Shown: positions 4,918 through 13,021 of the stretch, one piece after another
How the letters are laid out: each line of letters begins with the position of its first letter
How positions within the stretch are numbered: position 1 is the first letter of the stretch
Origin: Gemmobacter megaterium
GTDB taxonomy: Bacteria; Pseudomonadota; Alphaproteobacteria; Rhodobacterales; Rhodobacteraceae
Assembly: GCF_900156815.1 (NCBI RefSeq)
Contig: NZ_FTOT01000001.1
Coordinates: 434,001 to 498,000 of the forward strand
Direction: 5' to 3'
DNA: 64,000 nt
Position numbers and translations under genes: made by a program
Notes under the pieces: model-generated
What the model was told of the DNA's origin: nothing
The model's database searches: none
Seen by the model: the letters and a program-made list of their open reading frames with translations, nothing else

Positions 4918-5238
4918 ATGTCCGAAGACAGAGTGATTGCCGAACTGGCCAAAGCATTGGCCCATCCTGCGCGGCTACATATCCTGCGGGTTCTGATGGC
5001 CACACCCGGATGTATCGGTGGCGATATCGTCGGCGCTGTCGGCCTGGCGCAATCGACGGTGTCCGAGCATCTGCGGATCCTGAAGGCGGCCGGGCTGATC
5101 ACCGGCGAGATTTCTGGCCCGCGCATCTGCTATGCCATCAATCCGGCGGCAGTGCAGCCTTTGACCGCCTTTGTCACGCTGCTGGCCGTGCCCGTCGGGG
5201 ATGCCTGCTGTCCGCCTGCAACCGGAGTTTGCGCATGA
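4918..5238 (+). CDS. arsR: ArsR-family arsenic-responsive repressor
   Basis: A 106-residue winged-helix protein. The recognition helix segment [18 protein letters not shown] is typical of ArsR/SmtB. It lacks the classical CVC metal site but ends in [12 protein letters not shown], placing Cys97, Cys98 and Cys105 at the C-terminus. This resembles the C-terminal arsenite site of Acidithiobacillus ferrooxidans ArsR. It would repress the ars operon until As(III) binds. An ATG at 4903 is out of frame, so 4918 is the start. Its stop overlaps the acr3 start by 4 bp. Confidence 0.93.
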
Positions 5239-6253
5239 GTCTGTTCGAACGTTGGCTGACCCTGTGGGTCGCGCTGTGCATCCTGGCCGGTCTGGTGCTG
5301 GGCACACAGTTGCCGGGGCTGTTCGGCGCGCTGGCCGGGCTGGAAATCGCCTCGGTCAACCTTGTCGTGGCGGTGCTGATCTGGGCGATGGTCTATCCGA
5401 TGATGATCGCCATCGACTTCGGCTCGCTCAAGGCTGTGGGGCAGCGGCCCAAGGGGCTGGTCATCACGCTGGTGGTCAACTGGCTGATCAAGCCGTTTAC
5501 CATGGCCGCGCTGGCGGTGCTGTTCTTTGATCATGTCTTTGCAGGACTCGTGGATCCCGCGCGCGCGCCGGAATATATCGCGGGCCTGATCCTGCTGGGG
5601 GCGGCCCCCTGTACGGCCATGGTGTTTGTCTGGTCGCAACTGACCAAGGGCGATCCGAACTACACTCTGGTGCAGGTATCGGTGAATGACCTGATCATGG
5701 TGGTGGCCTTTGCGCCGATCGTCGCGTTCTTGCTGGGGGTGACGGACATATCGGTGCCGTGGGAGACGCTGATCCTGTCGGTGGTGCTGTATATCGTCAT
5801 CCCGCTGATCGCCGGCACGCTGACGCGCGCAGCACTTCTTGGCAAGGGCGGCGATGCGGCGGTGGCCGCGTTCACTGCGCGGATCAAGCCGGCTCGGTGC
5901 TGGGCCTGTTGCTGACCGTCGTGTTGCTGTTCGGCTTTCAGGGGCCGGTGATCCTGGCGCAGCCGCTGCTGATCGCATTGATCGCGGTGCCGATCCTCCT
6001 GCAATCCTACGGCATCTTTGCACTTGGCTATGCCTGGGCCTGGGCGTGGCGGGTGCCGCACAAGGTGGCGGCGCCTTGCGCATTGATCGGCACGTCAAAT
6101 TTCTTCGAACTGGCGGTGGCGGTTGCCATCGGCCTGTTCGGGCTGAATTCCGGCGCGGCACTGGCAACTGTGGTGGGGGTACTGGTCGAGGTGCCGGTGA
6201 TGCTGACGCTGGTCGCCTTTGCCAACCGGACCAGAGAACGGTTCCCTGCCTGA
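5235..6253 (+). pseudogene. acr3: ACR3-type arsenite efflux permease, broken by a 1-bp frameshift
   Basis: The first 219 codons give an ACR3 permease start with several membrane segments and the conserved thiolate motif [13 protein letters not shown] (Cys126). At about 5889-5892 the sequence CCGGCTCGG lacks one G relative to the expected Pro-Gly-Ser-Val. The first frame then ends at a TGA at 5913-5915. The remainder ([15 protein letters not shown] to the ERFPA end at 6253) continues in the next frame without a gap. Restoring one base gives about 340 residues and ten membrane segments, the normal family length. It is either a natural inactivation or a sequencing error in a G run. If real, the main arsenite exporter of this operon is lost. 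Confidence 0.88.
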
Positions 6254-6313
6254 CCCTTGGCCATCCGGCAGGTGGGGCGGGGTGTCATGGAAATGTCACT
6301 GGACATGCTCAAT

Positions 6314-6341
6314 GATTCCATTATTCAGGAAATATGGAATC
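6314..6341. promoter_or_regulatory. Inverted repeat overlapping the arsR-arsC fusion start (candidate operator)
   Basis: GATTCCAT (6314-6321) and ATGGAATC (6334-6341) form a perfect 8-bp inverted repeat with a 12-bp AT-rich centre containing the AGGA ribosome-binding site. The right arm includes the ATG of the fusion gene, so a bound repressor would block transcription and initiation together. It lies in the 80-bp gap after acr3, suggesting that the downstream genes have separate control. Confidence 0.5.
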
Positions 6342-7182
6342 GAATAGCGCCGCCCTTGCCTTCTCCACGCTTGGCCACCCTGGCCGTCTTGCCGTCTTTC
6401 GGCTGTTGATGCGGTTTGCGCCCCAAGGGGTGCGACCGACCGAGATTGCCGCCGCCCTGGGGCTGCGGCCCAACACCCTGTCGCATCATCTGGCCGATCT
6501 GGTGGCGGCAGGGCTTGTGCAGGTGAACCGGCAGGGCCGGTCGCTGTTCTATACGACCGACCTTCACACAACTGACGCGTTGATCGGGTATCTGGCCTTG
6601 GATGTGGGGCGGGCCCGGCCGGATCTGATGACCGCGATTCGCGTTTCCACAAAGGAGAGGCCCGTGACAGGCGACGCTGCATACAACGTTCTGTTCATCT
6701 GTTCGGGCAATTCGGCCCGTTCCATCTTTGCCGAGGCGCTGTTGCGCGATCTGGGCGGCGGCCGGTTCGTGGCCCATTCCGGCGGCACGCGGCCCGGCGC
6801 GCAGGTAAACCCCCATGCGCTGGAGGTGCTGGCGCGCAACGGGCATTCCGCCGCCGGATTGCGGTCCAAGCACATATCCGAGTTTCAGGGCAAGGGCGCC
6901 CCGGTGATGGATTTCGTCTTCACCGTCTGTGATACCGCCGCCGCCGAGGAGTGCCCGCCCTGGCCGGGCCAGCCGATCACGGGGCATTGGGGGCTGCCCG
7001 ATCCGGTCAAGGTGGTGGGGACGGAGGCGGAAAAGGCGCTGGCCTTTGCCCAGACCTATGGCGCAATGCGGCGGCGGATCGCGGTTTTTGCCGAACTGCC
7101 CTTTGGAACGCTGGACCGTCTGGCGCTGCAATCCCGCATCGACGGGATCGGGGCCGATGCGCTGGCCCTTGGGAAAGGTTGA
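6334..7182 (+). CDS. ArsR-ArsC fusion: winged-helix regulator with arsenate reductase domain
   Basis: This 282-residue protein joins an ArsR-type winged helix (residues 1 to about 105; [17 protein letters not shown] is the recognition helix) to a low-molecular-weight-phosphatase-type arsenate reductase (about 116-282). The reductase has the P-loop CSGNSAR (Cys123-Arg129), the redox cysteines Cys199 and Cys207 ([13 protein letters not shown]) and the acid loop LPDP (Asp223). It would reduce As(V) to As(III) using thioredoxin or a similar partner. The regulator domain contains no cysteine at all, so it cannot bind As(III) in the usual way. The start follows AGGA by 3-4 bp. It is followed by GAPDH, a CDF-like gene and arsJ in the same direction. 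Confidence 0.93.
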
Positions 7183-7187
7183 TCGTG

Positions 7188-8198
7188 ATGACCCGTATTG
7201 CCCTCAATGGCCTTGGCCGCATCGGAAAGCTGGTGCTGCGCGACCTGATCGACACCGGGGCGGGTGGCGATATCGTTCTGCTGAACGATCCGGTCGGCGA
7301 TGCCGGGCAGCACGCGCTGCTGATGGAATTCGACAGTGTGCATGGCCGCTGGTCCACGCCTGTCGGTCATGCAGACGGGGCGCTGGTGCTGAACGGCCGA
7401 TCCGTTCGCCTGACCCATGAAAAGACCATTTCCGCGCTGCCCCTGGCCGAGATGGGGGTCGATCTGGTGATCGACTGTACCGGGGTGTTCAAGACCGCTG
7501 CCAAGATTGCCCCCTATTTCGAGGCCGGGGTCAAAAAGGTTGCGGTCAGTTCGCCGGTCAAGGATGGCGGCGCGCTGAACCTGGTCTATGGCGTCAATCA
7601 TCATCTGTATGATGGTGGGCAGACCATCGTGACAGCCGCATCCTGCACCACGAACTGCCTTGCGCCGGTGGTCAAGGTGATCCATGAAACGCTGGGCATC
7701 CGGCATGGGTCGATCACCACGATCCACGACGTCACCAATACCCAGACCATCGTGGACCGCCCGGACAAGGACATGCGCCGCGCGCGGTCGGCGCTGATGA
7801 ACCTGATCCCGACCACCACGGGCAGTGCCACGGCGATCACGCTGATCTATCCCGAACTCAAGGGGCGCCTGAACGGCCATGCGGTGCGGGTGCCGCTGCT
7901 GAACGCATCGCTGACCGATTGTGTGTTCGAGGTGGAGCGGGCGACCTCGGCCGAAGAGGTGAACGCCCTGTTCAAGGCTGCCGCCGAGGGGCCGTTGCAG
8001 GGCATTCTGGGCTTCGAGCCGCGCCCGCTGGTGTCATGCGATTTCACCAATGACCGGCGGTCGTCCATCATTGATGGCCCGTCCACCATGGTGATCAACG
8101 GAACCCAGGTCAAAATCTATGCCTGGTATGACAACGAATGGGGCTATGCCTGCCGCCTGGCCGACATCGTCCGCATGATGGCGGAGAGCCTGAGGTGA
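7188..8198 (+). CDS. ArsJ-associated glyceraldehyde-3-phosphate dehydrogenase
   Basis: This 336-residue protein starts with the NAD-binding motif [15 protein letters not shown] and has the catalytic cysteine in [11 protein letters not shown] and the closing [13 protein letters not shown]. In ars operons with arsJ, this enzyme uses arsenate instead of phosphate on glyceraldehyde-3-phosphate and makes 1-arseno-3-phosphoglycerate, which ArsJ exports. The location two genes before arsJ supports that role over central glycolysis. A GTG directly before the ATG at 7188 could also serve. Its TGA overlaps the next GTG start. Confidence 0.93.
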
Positions 8199-8785
8199 CA
8201 CGTTTCCAGAAAGGCGCGCTTGTCCTTGCGCTGCTGCTCAACCTGAGCGTCGCGCTGCTCGAGATCCTTGCAGGGCTGTGGGCGCGGTCGGTCGCGCTGC
8301 TGGCCGATGCGGCGCATTTCGTCGAGGACAGCGCGATCTATCTGCTGGCACTGCTGATCACCGGATCGACCGCCGCCGCCGAGCGGCGCTTTGCGCTGGC
8401 AATTGCGGTGTTGATGATGGCGCCGGGCGTGATGGCGGCGGCGCAGGTTGTCCGGCGCCTGGCCGACCCGGCCCCGCCACATGCGGCGGCTGTGGTCGCC
8501 GTGTCGGGCCTGGCGCTGATGGCGAACCTGCTGGGCGCGGCGATCATCCTGGCAGCGCGGCGCGGGCCTGCGCCGGAACCGCTTGGCCTGCGCGCCGCCT
8601 GGTATGCCTCGCGCCACGATGCCATGGGGAATATCGCCATGATCGGCGCCGGTCTGGCGGTGGCCGCAACCGGGCAGGGGTGGCCGGAACTTGTGGTCGG
8701 GGTCGGGGTTGCGTTGCTGCATCTGTCGGGGGCGGTGGCCATCCTGTCCTGTGTCTGCCTTCGCTCGACGCGGGCCGTGCGATGA
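8195..8785 (+). CDS. CDF-like six-helix cation transporter inserted between gapdh and arsJ
   Basis: A 196-residue membrane protein with about six hydrophobic segments. The second carries [15 protein letters not shown], resembling the metal-site helix of cation diffusion facilitators, and the fifth carries [15 protein letters not shown]. It lacks the cytoplasmic C-terminal metallochaperone-like domain usual in CDF proteins. The start is GTG overlapping the gapdh stop (GTGA), and its own stop overlaps arsJ (ATGA), so it is embedded in the gapdh-arsJ unit. It may export a metal ion or assist arsenical export; the substrate is unknown. Confidence 0.8.
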
Positions 8786-10044
8786 GCGGCGCCTCCGCGG
8801 CGCAGGGAACCTCCTTGCGTGCCTATGCCGCCGTGACGGCCGCCTACTGGGCCTTCATGCTGTCGGACGGCGCGTTGCGGATGCTGGTGCTGCTGCATTT
8901 CAACACGCTGGGCTTTTCGCCGGTCCAACTGGCCTGGCTGTTCCTGCTGTACGAACTGGCCGGGATCGTGACCAATCTGGCCGCCGGGTGGCTGGCGGCG
9001 CGCTTTGGGCTGGCGGCCACGCTCTATGGCGGGCTGGCGTTGCAGATCGGCGCGCTGGTGGCCCTGGCGCAGCTTGATCCGGGCTGGAGCATCGCGGCCT
9101 CGGTCGCCTTTGTCATGGCGGTGCAGGGCGTGTCGGGGGTGGCCAAGGATCTGGCCAAGATGTCATCGAAATCGGCGGTCAAGCTGCTGGCACCCAAAGA
9201 GAGCGGCGGCCTGTTCCGTTGGGTGGCGCTGTTGACCGGATCGAAGAATGCGGTCAAGGGCCTGGGCTTTTTTCTGGGCGCCGTGCTGCTGGGTCTGGCC
9301 GGGTTCGGCCCGGCGGTCTGGGGCATGGCGGCGGTGCTGGCGGCAATTCTGGTTGCGGTGGTGCTGTTCTTGCCCGCGGGCCTGCCGGGCCGCATGAAAT
9401 CCGAGGATGGCTGGGGCGGCTGGCGGTCGCGCGATGCACGGGTCAACCGGCTGTCCCTGGCGCGGATGTTCCTGTTCGGTGCGCGGGACGTGTGGTTTGT
9501 CGTGGGGATTCCGGTCTATTTCCAGTCGGTGCTGTCGGATGGCACCGCCGAGGGGCGGCGCGAGGCGTTCTTTCTGGTCGGCGGTTTCATGGCATTGTGG
9601 ATCATCGCCTATGGCGTGGTGCAGGCCATGGCGCCGCGCATTCTGGGGGGCAAGGACCAGCCGGATTCGGTGACGACGGCAAAGGCCATCTTCTGGGCCG
9701 GGCTTCTGGTGCCGATTCCCTTTGCGCTGGCGGTGGCGGCTTGGGTCGCGGATGGCCCCGCGCTGTGGCTTACCGTGACTCTGGTGGTGGGGTTGCTGGT
9801 GTTCGGCTTTGTCTTTGCGGTGAATTCCTCGGTGCATTCCTATCTGATCCTGGCCTTTGGATCGGCGGATCGGATCACGCGGGATGTCGGCTTTTACTAC
9901 ATGGCGAATGCGGCGGGCCGGTTGACGGGAACCCTGTTGTCGGGGGTCAGCTACCAGATCGGCGGGTTGCCGCTGTGTCTGGCCACCGCCGGGGGGATGG
10001 CGGCGGCCAGTTGGCTGGCCGCGCGCCGTCTCAGTTCCGTCTGA
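8782..10044 (+). CDS. arsJ: ArsJ, organoarsenical (1-arseno-3-phosphoglycerate) efflux MFS transporter
   Basis: This 420-residue major facilitator protein with about 12 membrane segments has the ArsJ signatures YWAFMLSDGALRMLVLLHF at the N-terminus, GVAKDLAKMSSKSAVK in the middle, and VGFYYMANAAGRL near the end. ArsJ exports the unstable product of the neighbouring GAPDH, which breaks down outside the cell to arsenate and so gives arsenate resistance without reduction. It overlaps the CDF-like gene by 4 bp, and its last 14 bp overlap the end of the converging MFS gene at 10031. Confidence 0.92.
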   Translation: MSGASAAQGTSLRAYAAVTAAYWAFMLSDGALRMLVLLHFNTLGFSPVQLAWLFLLYELAGIVTNLAAGWLAARFGLAATLYGGLALQIGALVALAQLDPGWSIAASVAFVMAVQGVSGVAKDLAKMSSKSAVKLLAPKESGGLFRWVALLTGSKNAVKGLGFFLGAVLLGLAGFGPAVWGMAAVLAAILVAVVLFLPAGLPGRMKSEDGWGGWRSRDARVNRLSLARMFLFGARDVWFVVGIPVYFQSVLSDGTAEGRREAFFLVGGFMALWIIAYGVVQAMAPRILGGKDQPDSVTTAKAIFWAGLLVPIPFALAVAAWVADGPALWLTVTLVVGLLVFGFVFAVNSSVHSYLILAFGSADRITRDVGFYYMANAAGRLTGTLLSGVSYQIGGLPLCLATAGGMAAASWLAARRLSSV

Positions 10045-11191
10045 GCCACAGCAGCGCGGCGGTGGCGGCCAGCCCGATCCCCGCCGTCAGCCAGATGGCC
10101 GATAGCCCCCAGCCCGTCAGCGCCGCGCCAAAGACCAAGGGGGCAGCCGCCTGCATCACCCGCGCGGGCGCCCCCAGCCAGCCCAGCCGTTGCCCGTATC
10201 CGGCAGCCCCGAACAGCGCCAGCGGCAGCGTGCCCTTGGCAATGGTCAGAATCCCGTTTCCCGCCCCGTGCAGCAGGGCAAAGGCATAGGCCGCAGGCCC
10301 GCCGAACGCCACCAGCCCCACTGCGGCGACAGGATGGGCCGCCGCGGCCAGCCGGGCAGAGACGAGCGGATGAAACCGGCGCAGCAGTCCGAATTCCAGC
10401 ACCCGCGCCGCCACCTGCGCCGGGCCGATCAGGGCGCCGGCGGCGATGGCCATGGCCGTGCTTGCCCCGGCGGCCTGCAACAGGCCCGGCAGATGCGCCG
10501 CCATCGCGGTGGAGTTGAACCAGGTCGCCGCAAAGACGAAGGCCAGCAGCAGCATGGCCCCGCGCGGCGGCGGTGGGGCTTCGGGCTCGGGCGCGGCAGG
10601 TCTGGGCGCAGGCGCCGCACCTGCGGGCAACAGCGCATTCAGCGGCAGCGCGATGGCCAGATGGATCAGCGCCCAGCCCAGGCAGGCCTCGCGCCAGCCC
10701 CAGGTGGCCAGCATCACCCCCGACAACGGCCAGCCGATCGTGCTGGCAAATCCGGCGATCAGCGTGATGCCGGTGATCGGCCCGCGCGCCTCGCGCCCGT
10801 ATATCCCGGCCAGCGTGGCAAAGGCGGCCTCGTACAGCCCCATCCCCATGCCCAGCCCGATCAGCGCCCAGCCAGCGAACATCATCACGGGATCCGGCGC
10901 AACGGCCAGCCCCCCCAGCCCGGCGGCAAAGACAAGGTTCGACAGCATCAGCACGCCGCGCCCACCGTACCTGTCGATCCGTGCCCCGGCCCAGGGGCCG
11001 ACCATGGCCGATACCACCAGCGCCATCGAAAAGGCGCCGAACACCCAGACCGGCGACAGGCCGAAGCTGTCGGCCATGGGCACCGCCAGCACGGCCGGAA
11101 TATAGTAGCTGGAGGCCCAGCCGATGGTTTGCGCCGTGCCAAGCGCCGTCACCATCGGCCCGCGTCGTGCCGGGGACAGGCTCAGCAACAT
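10031..11191 (-). CDS. MFS transporter of the second ars operon (ArsK-like candidate)
   Basis: A 386-residue major facilitator protein with about 12 hydrophobic segments (QTIGWASSYYIPAVLAVPMA first, WLTAGIGLAATAALLWL last) and a proline/glutamate-rich central loop. It is the last gene of an arsR-led operon after a flavin monooxygenase. MFS pumps in this position (ArsK and relatives) export arsenite, antimonite or trivalent organoarsenicals; assignment to ArsK is inferred from context. The start at 11191 lies 10 bp inside the preceding gene; upstream in-frame sequence is the antisense-like tail of that gene. Confidence 0.82.
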   Translation of the reverse strand: MLLSLSPARRGPMVTALGTAQTIGWASSYYIPAVLAVPMADSFGLSPVWVFGAFSMALVVSAMVGPWAGARIDRYGGRGVLMLSNLVFAAGLGGLAVAPDPVMMFAGWALIGLGMGMGLYEAAFATLAGIYGREARGPITGITLIAGFASTIGWPLSGVMLATWGWREACLGWALIHLAIALPLNALLPAGAAPAPRPAAPEPEAPPPPRGAMLLLAFVFAATWFNSTAMAAHLPGLLQAAGASTAMAIAAGALIGPAQVAARVLEFGLLRRFHPLVSARLAAAAHPVAAVGLVAFGGPAAYAFALLHGAGNGILTIAKGTLPLALFGAAGYGQRLGWLGAPARVMQAAAPLVFGAALTGWGLSAIWLTAGIGLAATAALLWLRRN

Positions 11192-12585
11192 GCCCCGGCC
11201 TTTTGCCCTGCACCCTTGGGCGTGGCAGGGCCGCAACCTGCGCTGGCGCCACGCCCTGAACCCGATCCCGAACTCGAACCGCCGTTCGCCTCGGCGCCAC
11301 AACCGCCCTTGGCCCCGGCCGGGGCCGGATCGCCGCAGCAGCCCGCCGCCGCCACTGCCGCCACAGCCGAGAGCGACGGGCCGCTGCACACGCCGGTTTC
11401 CGGCAATACCAGCTCCACCCGTGCCGCCGCGGCATGATCCCCGGCAAGGGCAGCAGCGATAGAGCGCACTTGTTCATGCCCCGTCGCCAACAGAAAGGTG
11501 GGCGCGCGGCCATAGGATTTCATCCCTGCGATGAAGAATCCCGGTTCGGGATGCGCCAGCTCTGCGGCGCCATGCGGGCGCACCGTCCCGCAGGAATGCA
11601 GGTTGGGGTCGATCAGCGGCGCCAGCGCAGGCGGGCATTCCAGCGCCGGATCCAGTGCCACGCGCACCTCGCGCAGCATCGCCAGATCGGGGCGAAACCC
11701 GGTCGATATGATCAGCGCGTCCAGCGCGATCCGCCGCCCGTCGCTGGCCACCGCCAGCATCGGGTCCGTTCCCTCGATGCCGGACAGCCGGAAGCCGGTT
11801 TCCAGCACCACCCGCTGCCCGGATACAAGCCTCGCCATCTCCAGCCCCAGCGCGCCGCGCGCGGCCAGTTGATCCGCTGCGCCACCGCCAAGCGCGCGGG
11901 TGACGCTGTCGGCCCGGCACAGCCACACCGGAACGGTTCCGGGCAGGGCTGCCAGCGCCATCAGGTTGCCGATCGCCGAATGGCCGCCGCCCAGGACCCC
12001 GACCCGCCGCCCCTGGTACCGGGCCCGCGCCTGTCCCTGGATATCGGGCATTCCATGGTCCACCTGCGGATGCCCGGCCTCGCCCGGCACCATCAGCCCG
12101 GCACCGCCCGGATTGGGCTGAAACCAGGTTCCTGTGGTGTCGATCACCGCCTCGGCACGGTGCAGGGTGCGCCCCTCCGGCCCTTCTGTCGCCACGACAA
12201 AGGGCGTGGTCGCACGTCCGGCATTCTTGACCTTGTCCAGCCCGTCGCGTGCCACGGCCACGACGCGCTGGTTCAGGCGCAGCCAGGGGGACAGGCTGCG
12301 CCCCAGCGGCTCCAGATAAGAAGATATCAGATCGGCGCCGGTCGGATGGGCCTCGGGGTCGGGTGCCAGCCAGCCGTTGCGCTGCAATAGCCGGGCCGCC
12401 GCCGTGTCGATATTGTACCGCCAGTTCGAAAACATCGGCACATGGCGCCAGGCCCGCACCGCGTGAGCGACCGTATCGCCCTGTTCCAGGATCAGCGGCG
12501 TCATGCCCCGTTCCAGCACATGGGCGGCAGCGGCAAGACCCACCGGGCCCGCGCCAAGGATTGCGACTGTCTTTGCCATCGGCAT
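11182..12585 (-). CDS. Flavin-dependent monooxygenase-like protein with cysteine-rich tail (ArsO-like)
   Basis: This 467-residue protein has a FAD-binding start VAILGAGPVGLAAAAHVLERG, a second dinucleotide motif VGVLGGGHSAIGN (about 198-210) and a STGFRPD segment, as in flavin-containing monooxygenases. Similar genes (arsO) occur in ars operons, with the reaction mostly uncertain. The last 75 residues are a Gly/Ala/Ser-rich tail with seven cysteines (400, 416, 417, 429, 451, 466, 467), ending in a Cys-Cys pair. The tail looks like a flexible soft-metal-binding extension. AAAGGA lies before the start. It follows arsR by 48 bp. Confidence 0.85.
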   Translation of the reverse strand: MPMAKTVAILGAGPVGLAAAAHVLERGMTPLILEQGDTVAHAVRAWRHVPMFSNWRYNIDTAAARLLQRNGWLAPDPEAHPTGADLISSYLEPLGRSLSPWLRLNQRVVAVARDGLDKVKNAGRATTPFVVATEGPEGRTLHRAEAVIDTTGTWFQPNPGGAGLMVPGEAGHPQVDHGMPDIQGQARARYQGRRVGVLGGGHSAIGNLMALAALPGTVPVWLCRADSVTRALGGGAADQLAARGALGLEMARLVSGQRVVLETGFRLSGIEGTDPMLAVASDGRRIALDALIISTGFRPDLAMLREVRVALDPALECPPALAPLIDPNLHSCGTVRPHGAAELAHPEPGFFIAGMKSYGRAPTFLLATGHEQVRSIAAALAGDHAAAARVELVLPETGVCSGPSLSAVAAVAAAGCCGDPAPAGAKGGCGAEANGGSSSGSGSGRGASAGCGPATPKGAGQKAGACC

Positions 12586-12592
12586 ATTCCTT

Positions 12593-12606
12593 TATTTCTG
12601 GAAATA
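12593..12606. promoter_or_regulatory. Inverted repeat between arsR and the monooxygenase gene
   Basis: TATTTC (12593-12598) and GAAATA (12601-12606) form a perfect dyad with a 2-bp centre, followed by a second GGAAATAT. A related TATTTC...GAAATA pair with a 10-bp spacer occurs at 12955-12976, just upstream of the same arsR gene. Both are candidate sites for the operon's ArsR. The downstream one overlaps the region of the monooxygenase ribosome-binding site. Confidence 0.38.
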
Positions 12607-12633
12607 TGGAAATATGGGGCGTCAAATTTCGCG

Positions 12634-12936
12634 TCAGGGCGACGTCGACGGCGCATCGGCGCAGCATTCATCGGCCAGATCGTTGATCAGACCCTGCATC
12701 ACGGCATAGTTGGTGCGACAGATCAGCGATGTTCCGGCCCGCTCCTGCTGGATCAGATCCACCTGCACCAACGCGCGGCAATGGTGCGACAGGGTAGAAC
12801 CGGGGATCCCCAGCCGGTCCTGGATCTGCCCCATCGACAGCCCGGCATCCCCGGCCCGCACAAGCAGGCGGTACAACCGCAGGCGCGTGGCATTTCCCAA
12901 TGCGGCAAGCCGGGAGGCAGCGAGATCGACATCCAT
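12634..12936 (-). CDS. arsR: ArsR-family repressor of the second ars operon
   Basis: A 100-residue winged-helix protein with recognition segment GIPGSTLSHHCRALVQVDLI. Cysteines are at 53, 73, 91 and 92, the last two as a C-terminal Cys-Cys pair (ADECCADAP), which could form the arsenite site. It heads the minus-strand operon arsR-monooxygenase-MFS. The start at 12936 is preceded by AAGGAA; the open frame upstream has no homology. This is the second stand-alone ArsR of the island and differs clearly from the one at 4918. Confidence 0.9.
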   Translation of the reverse strand: MDVDLAASRLAALGNATRLRLYRLLVRAGDAGLSMGQIQDRLGIPGSTLSHHCRALVQVDLIQQERAGTSLICRTNYAVMQGLINDLADECCADAPSTSP

Positions 12937-13021
12937 TGCGTGTTCCTTTTTCTGTATTTCTAGAATCATCGAAATAAAATGTCAAGCAAAGCGTCATGCC
13001 CCCGATTCCCCGCCGCAGGTG

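Follow-up and report, generated by a model that had tools for sequence, protein, structure and literature searches.

To our knowledge, the ArsR repressors that have been characterised sense trivalent arsenicals, and they do so through cysteines. Operons that pair a glyceraldehyde-3-phosphate dehydrogenase gene (gapdh) with arsJ handle unreduced arsenate, and how they detect it is an open question, stated as such for Vibrio cholerae (PMC9601151). The question is raised again by the window analysed here, a 64,000-nucleotide stretch of Gemmobacter megaterium (contig NZ_FTOT01000001.1, positions 434,001 to 498,000), in which such an operon begins with a fusion of ArsR to the arsenate reductase ArsC. 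The ArsR half lacks the arsenite-binding cysteines, and we asked what might release it from DNA instead.

The fusion gene, arsRC (6334..7182, +), is a single open frame of 282 codons. Translation, Pfam and an AlphaFold model agree on a layout of ArsR at residues 1-100, a linker at 101-116 and an ArsC domain of the LMW-PTP fold at 117-255. Pfam places an ArsR-type HTH (HTH_20/HTH_5) at residues 13-64 and LMWPc at 119-229. The winged HTH scores 39.4 bits against HTH_20 (cut-off 27) and 31.5 against HTH_5 (cut-off 22), and the product scores 55.3 bits against NF033788 (cut-off 55); as far as sequence can assign it, the protein is a member of the ArsR/SmtB metalloregulator family. The AlphaFold model, made from an alignment of 65 relatives, has a mean pLDDT of 88, and in Foldseek comparisons its ArsR half matches AfArsR (6j05_B) and its ArsC half matches Deinococcus indicus ArsC2 (8p6m_B), each with a TMt of 0.93. 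At about 101-116, where pLDDT is low, the linker is predicted from the model to be flexible, and it is little conserved, with 34% identity within the triad-less clade defined below.

The ArsC half has the residue pattern of a thioredoxin-coupled ArsC, with the CX5R P-loop C123-SGNSA-R129, C199, C207 and D223-P224. The preliminary description of this DNA had named 123, 199 and 207 as the only cysteines in the protein, and the translation of 6334-7182 bears this out. Cys123 (6700..6702, +) is the P-loop nucleophile, in CSGNSARS, and Cys199 (6928..6930, +) and Cys207 (6952..6954, +) belong to the redox cascade; each of the three is kept in 128/128 fusions tested, and N126, S127, R129, S130, D223 and P224 are conserved in at least 95%. 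The ArsC part scores 58.5 bits against TIGR02691, the thioredoxin-coupled type of pI258 and Bacillus subtilis (cut-off 174.3), and is likewise below the cut-off of the glutaredoxin-type TIGR02689, so that the class of its reductant is not assignable by score.

ArsRs of type 1 (R773) carry CVC..C in the DNA-binding helix region, and those of type 3 (CgArsR) an N-terminal CC with a distant Cys. Neither motif is present in the window protein, which has no Cys before residue 123. The type 2 triad of AfArsR, at the end of the dimerisation helix, is also absent, its places being taken by Val91, Gly92 and Met99. The As(III) ligands of AfArsR are Cys95, Cys96 and Cys102 (PMC11868830), and the CC at 91-92 of triad-bearing fusions aligns with the CC of AfArsR 6j05. 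Its cysteines place the window protein outside the As(III)-responsive ArsRs of types 1, 2 and 3.

Relatives were gathered from 296 genomes within the same family and 385 within the class, giving an alignment of 131 full fusions. At positions 91/92/99, all three cysteines (CCC) are present in 84 of these, one or two in 10 and none in 37. The lost cysteines correspond in the window to codons 91-92 (Val-Gly; 6604..6609, +) and codon 99 (Met; 6628..6630, +), which are Cys-Cys and Cys in the 84 CCC fusions. In a tree of the fusions built without columns 88-118 and with ten outgroup rows, a single clade takes in 35 of the 37 triad-less rows; the enclosing 36-row clade has an SH-aLRT of 97, and the outgroup rows are all CCC. 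The tree contains three triad changes in total, with L143 and L092 as separate losses outside the main clade. The sister rows of that clade, L033 and L034, are intermediates reading CGL and CGS. Split arsR genes adjoining arsC in other families have the triad in 4/4 cases. Since the outgroups are all CCC and the split arsR genes have the triad, the arsenite site was present in the ancestor and was lost in the clade of the window protein. The loss in the 35-row clade is one event and a derived state, in which conserved hydrophobic residues and a glycine have taken the place of the cysteines: V/L/M/I/A-G/A at 91-92, mostly V/L-G, and L/M/I at 99 in nearly all members.

A second set of 80 loci with named organisms, whose genomes overlap the first set, includes 60 that are triad-less; genome counts of this kind are not independent, the main loss being a single event. 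The triad-less loci include those of Rhodobacter capsulatus, Paracoccus, Gemmobacter, Tabrizicola, Rhodovulum strictum, Roseovarius and Tistrella mobilis. With the state common to the 35-row clade and to 60/80 named loci, chance or a sequencing artefact is ruled out as the cause of the missing triad. The fusion of Cereibacter sphaeroides 2.4.1 has a single remaining triad cysteine, Cys91. The plasmid copy of R. capsulatus SB 1003 is triad-less but has Cys 5, 16 and 63 in its ArsR part. The preliminary description had stated that the ArsR domain contains no Cys; this is true of the window protein but does not extend to the clade, several members of which have scattered single cysteines. Since these are unaligned, the conserved trait is the missing Cys91/92/99 triad and not a Cys-free ArsR part. 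The accompanying claim, that this domain cannot bind As(III) by thiols, is well supported by the loss from the clade of the type 2 triad found in its relatives. Two triad-less copies occur on different scaffolds in R. capsulatus DSM 1710 (L283, L306). A triad-less fusion with 72-74% identity occurs in Tistrella (L302, L035-L037), on plasmid pTM1 in T. mobilis KA081020-065, and is probably a horizontal transfer out of Rhodobacteraceae-type bacteria.

Judged by gene content, arsRC heads an arsRC-gapdh-arsJ arsenate-export operon. It is followed by genes for an ArsJ-associated glyceraldehyde-3-phosphate dehydrogenase (7188..8198, +; NF033735 532.5 bits, cut-off 450) and for ArsJ, an organoarsenical efflux MFS transporter (8782..10044, +; NF033734 517.1 bits, cut-off 400; start read from the frame). 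The pathway exports arsenate as arsenophosphoglycerate (PMC6205960). In nearly all of the 16-kb neighbourhoods examined, the arsenical gapdh gene directly follows arsRC, whichever the state of the triad. In the window, gapdh and arsJ are separated by a cation-diffusion-facilitator-like gene (8138-8785; below the CDF superfamily cut-off); it is not seen in most relatives, where arsJ comes directly after gapdh. Beyond arsJ, a divergent cluster on the minus strand at 10031-12969 encodes an ArsK-like MFS transporter, a flavin oxidoreductase weakly similar to ArsO and a third ArsR, whose C-terminal end has a nearby CC; a similar arsK-arsO-arsR block follows arsJ in L154, L158 and L159.

Upstream of arsRC is a separate arsR (4918..5238, +), type-2-like with C97-C98...C105, beside a gene for the arsenite exporter Acr3 (5235..6253, +) whose frame is broken at about 5885-5915, so that TIGR00832 matches in two frames. 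This is the only acr3 match in the genome, and the break is either a real loss or an assembly error. An acr3 gene lies within the arsRC operon in 6 of the neighbourhoods listed, 5 of them retaining some or all of the triad and the sixth being the outlying loss L192, and in none of the 35-row clade; we claim no tight link between loss of the triad and loss of acr3 from the operon, because shared ancestry confounds the two. Nor do the proteobacterial loci examined support a rule that the regulators of gapdh-arsJ operons lose arsenite sensing. Most stand-alone ArsRs beside arsenical gapdh genes in other proteobacteria retain R773-type cysteines, and therefore such operons need no arsenite-blind regulator in general. 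Fusions in the reverse order, ArsC-ArsR, were seen in two gammaproteobacterial genomes. One (L265, 676-1440) stands directly before an arsenical gapdh and has its R773-type motif down to one Cys (LCVYELT); in the other (L269, 1477-2262), the motif is CVC without the third Cys.

The putative operator is a 13-2-13 inverted repeat (6314..6341) over the -10 region and the start codon. Its arms, GATTCCATTATTC at 6314-6326 and GAAATATGGAATC at 6329-6341, pair at 11/13 positions across a spacer of 2. When the 112 bp upstream were shuffled, 0.1% of the shuffles gave a repeat of equal quality, and the 64 kb contain just two further sites of this kind. The site had been put forward in the preliminary description; it is a real inverted repeat, unlikely by chance and kept in position and sequence in relatives. 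The upstream consensus, TTCc..TATTC.GGAA.TATGGAA, with a dyad that includes the ATG, is found in triad-less and triad-bearing fusions alike. Since the dyad covers the likely -10, which would set the transcription start near the ATG, the arsRC message may be leaderless.

A predicted PhoB-type Pho box, GTGTCATGGAAATGTCAC, lies just upstream (6282..6299, +). The format is two 7-bp direct repeats with a 4-bp spacer, and 2/14 specified positions differ from the E. coli consensus. Promoters of the triad-less clade carry CTGTCATGAAACCTTCAYTGGAC, a candidate Pho box at about -53. Allowing up to 4/14 mismatches to the E. coli consensus near that position, it is found in 27/35 of the clade vs 7/84 CCC fusions. 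With a relaxed pattern, drawn up once the sequences had been seen, the counts are 33/35 vs 19/84, with none in shuffles, and a Pho-type box is present in 52/60 of the named triad-less loci. The same format occurs in this genome about 100 bp before pstS, with 2 mismatches, and upstream of a phoR-like kinase gene; since the latter is followed by other genes and not pst, the pstS promoter is the better control. Because the box is also present in triad-bearing sisters and some other CCC fusions, it predates the loss of the triad and is not tied to it. A substrate-binding gene upstream of arsRC in R. capsulatus was considered as a PstS gene and ruled out, its product not being PstS-like.

Both halves of the fusion appear to be maintained. 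The median pairwise dN/dS in the triad-less clade is 0.19 for ArsR, 0.12 for residues 76-99 and 0.18 for ArsC. By these values the helix that lost the triad, like the rest of the ArsR part, is under purifying selection, and together with the conservation of the operator they rule out a degenerate ArsR half. Along the main triad loss, ArsC loop residue 204 changes stepwise from N to S to A. A general link between the two changes is ruled out: Asn is retained in the independent losses L143 and L092, which leaves a single lineage as the only case of coevolution between the halves.

The gene also has what looks like a second ribosome binding site. An internal Shine-Dalgarno (SD) sequence, AAGGAG (6652..6657, +), stands 6 nt before an in-frame GTG at codon 111, from which a free ArsC of 172 residues is predicted (6664..7182, +); the linker start and the SD are conserved. 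A linker ATG or GTG with at least 5 matched SD bases occurs in 25/37 triad-less genes, as against 1.6% of other in-frame start codons. Since the encoded peptide alone can force an SD-like sequence, a synonymous-codon null was run. Among 73 CCC genes that have a linker start, 57 carry the SD where the null expects 28; among 33 triad-less genes, 31 carry it where 23 are expected. It is likely from this pattern that free ArsC is made alongside the fusion.

Sensing via the ArsC catalytic cycle, an idea of the preliminary description, seems the best-fitting explanation of these features. The triad is gone, the operator, the DNA-binding half and the ArsC chemistry are kept, and arsenate-export genes lie downstream; from this combination we infer that release comes from ArsC meeting arsenate. 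On this basis, arsRC may be the autorepressor-enzyme of an arsenate-export operon, belonging to an arsenite-blind subfamily derepressed via the state of ArsC, a reading to which we give somewhat less than an even chance. The fusion dimer would repress by covering the -10 and start region. Derepression would come from the attached ArsC domains, either with arsenate bound or with the C123/C199/C207 cascade oxidised in turnover, and As(III) on the ArsR half would not be a derepressing signal. Activation by PhoB at low phosphate would be a second input, the operon firing under phosphate shortage in the presence of arsenate. The free ArsC made from the internal start could carry out bulk reduction, leaving sensing to the fusion. 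This fits the V. cholerae var operon (arsR-varG-varH-arsJ, where varG is gapdh), which is also As(V)-inducible and for which the authors propose an As(V)-sensing ArsR (PMC9601151). The low pLDDT and 34% identity of the linker make a rigid coupling of the halves doubtful. Also weighing against this reading are the unchanged ArsC residue 204 in L143 and L092, the presence of the Pho box before the triad was lost, and the R773-type cysteines of most stand-alone ArsRs beside arsenical gapdh genes.

The main rival is that the fusion is a repressor unresponsive to arsenic, and that PhoB at the Pho box overrides or outcompetes it under phosphate limitation, when arsenate would be entering via Pst. 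The frequency of the box, in 33/35 of the clade by the relaxed pattern and in 52/60 named triad-less loci, and its occurrence in the same format before pstS of this genome speak for it. Arsenic genes are known to come under PhoB in Halomonas HAL1, where aioBA is so controlled (PMC4563254), and on a plasmid of Paracoccus sp. MC1862 (L212, 1-3312) the neighbours of the fusion include phoX and a glycerophosphodiester phosphodiesterase gene, which are typical phosphate-starvation genes. Under this rival, however, enzyme activity would be the only reason for keeping the ArsC active site complete and conserved, a need that the internal start could meet by itself, and an inducer-less repressor would be costly in a toxin-export operon. 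We regard this rival as unlikely, but as one to be taken seriously. It is a good deal less probable that As(III) is still the inducer, either bound as a retained product by C123/C199/C207 of ArsC or acting on the same operator via another ArsR, such as that encoded at 4918-5238. An ArsC of the LMW-PTP type has been crystallised with arsenite (1lju), and the upstream ArsR does bear a triad. However, the search for inverted repeats turned up none like the arsRC operator in the region upstream of the 4918 gene, and most neighbourhoods of the clade have no adjacent acr3/arsR pair.

The inducer might instead be another molecule of the pathway, such as 1-arseno-3-phosphoglycerate, or phosphate or arsenate held in a phosphatase-type pocket without chemistry, in which case the ArsC domain would play a VarH-like part. 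VarH is a Cys-based phosphatase of PTP type encoded in the same operon type (PMC9601151), and the ArsC domain shares the LMW-PTP fold. But C199 and C207 are invariant, and these are needed for reductase and not for phosphatase chemistry, which leaves this proposal with a slim chance. Slimmer still is the chance that the gene amounts to an arsC with a vestigial ArsR half. The conserved ribosome site before the ArsC part could be read in that way, but the ArsR half has a dN/dS of 0.12-0.19 and conserved HTH residues, and the operator overlapping its start codon is conserved as well.

The protein resembles several known systems in part. The ArsR half has the winged-helix fold of the type 2 AfArsR of Acidithiobacillus ferrooxidans (6j05), but in its clade the three As(III)-binding cysteines are all missing and an ArsC domain is attached. 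Repressor and arsenate reductase are joined in one polypeptide in ArsR-ArsC fusions of Leptospirillum, Microbacterium, Sinorhizobium and Actinobacteria as well, which are described as As(III) sensing and/or detoxification proteins (PMC6205960, PMC6514093, PMC4443643). Compared by description, the portions of those papers that concern the fusions mention no triad-less subfamily, gapdh-arsJ partner or Pho box. The V. cholerae var operon likewise has an ArsR at the head of gapdh and arsJ, and the As(III) motif of that ArsR shows a C-to-A change (PMC9601151); unlike the window protein, this ArsR is unfused to ArsC, and the phosphatase VarH is a separate DUSP-type protein. The gapdh-arsJ operon of Pseudomonas aeruginosa DK2 shares export by GAPDH and ArsJ (Chen et al. 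2016, as summarised in PMC6205960), and that summary describes no ArsR-ArsC fusion in it. ArsR1 and ArsR2 of the related bacterium Paracoccus denitrificans offer a redox-responsive repressor, with type 2 cysteines at 92, 93 and 100, but they are stand-alone, keep the triad and control arsH (PMC9137774). In the literature searched, which excluded subscription papers, no description of a triad-less ArsR-ArsC subfamily was found. What is new here is this triad-less, Pho-boxed subfamily; the ArsR-ArsC fusion and the operon types were already known. The Pho box, the gapdh-arsJ operon, the internal ArsC start and the derived, clade-level loss of the triad also go beyond the preliminary description.

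It is possible, though we think it doubtful, that these proteins form a repressor class in which the fused ArsC acts as a receptor for intracellular arsenate by reacting with it, and switches ArsR after the arsenite site was discarded, with a PhoB phosphate gate on the promoter. Close relatives with and without the arsenite triad, sharing the same operator and operon, provide a natural experiment in tractable organisms such as R. capsulatus SB 1003, which has no triad, and C. sphaeroides 2.4.1, which has Cys91 only. If induction does run via the ArsC domain, then a metabolic enzyme would itself be sensing the substrate on which it acts, and the fusion could serve as an arsenate-specific biosensor part.
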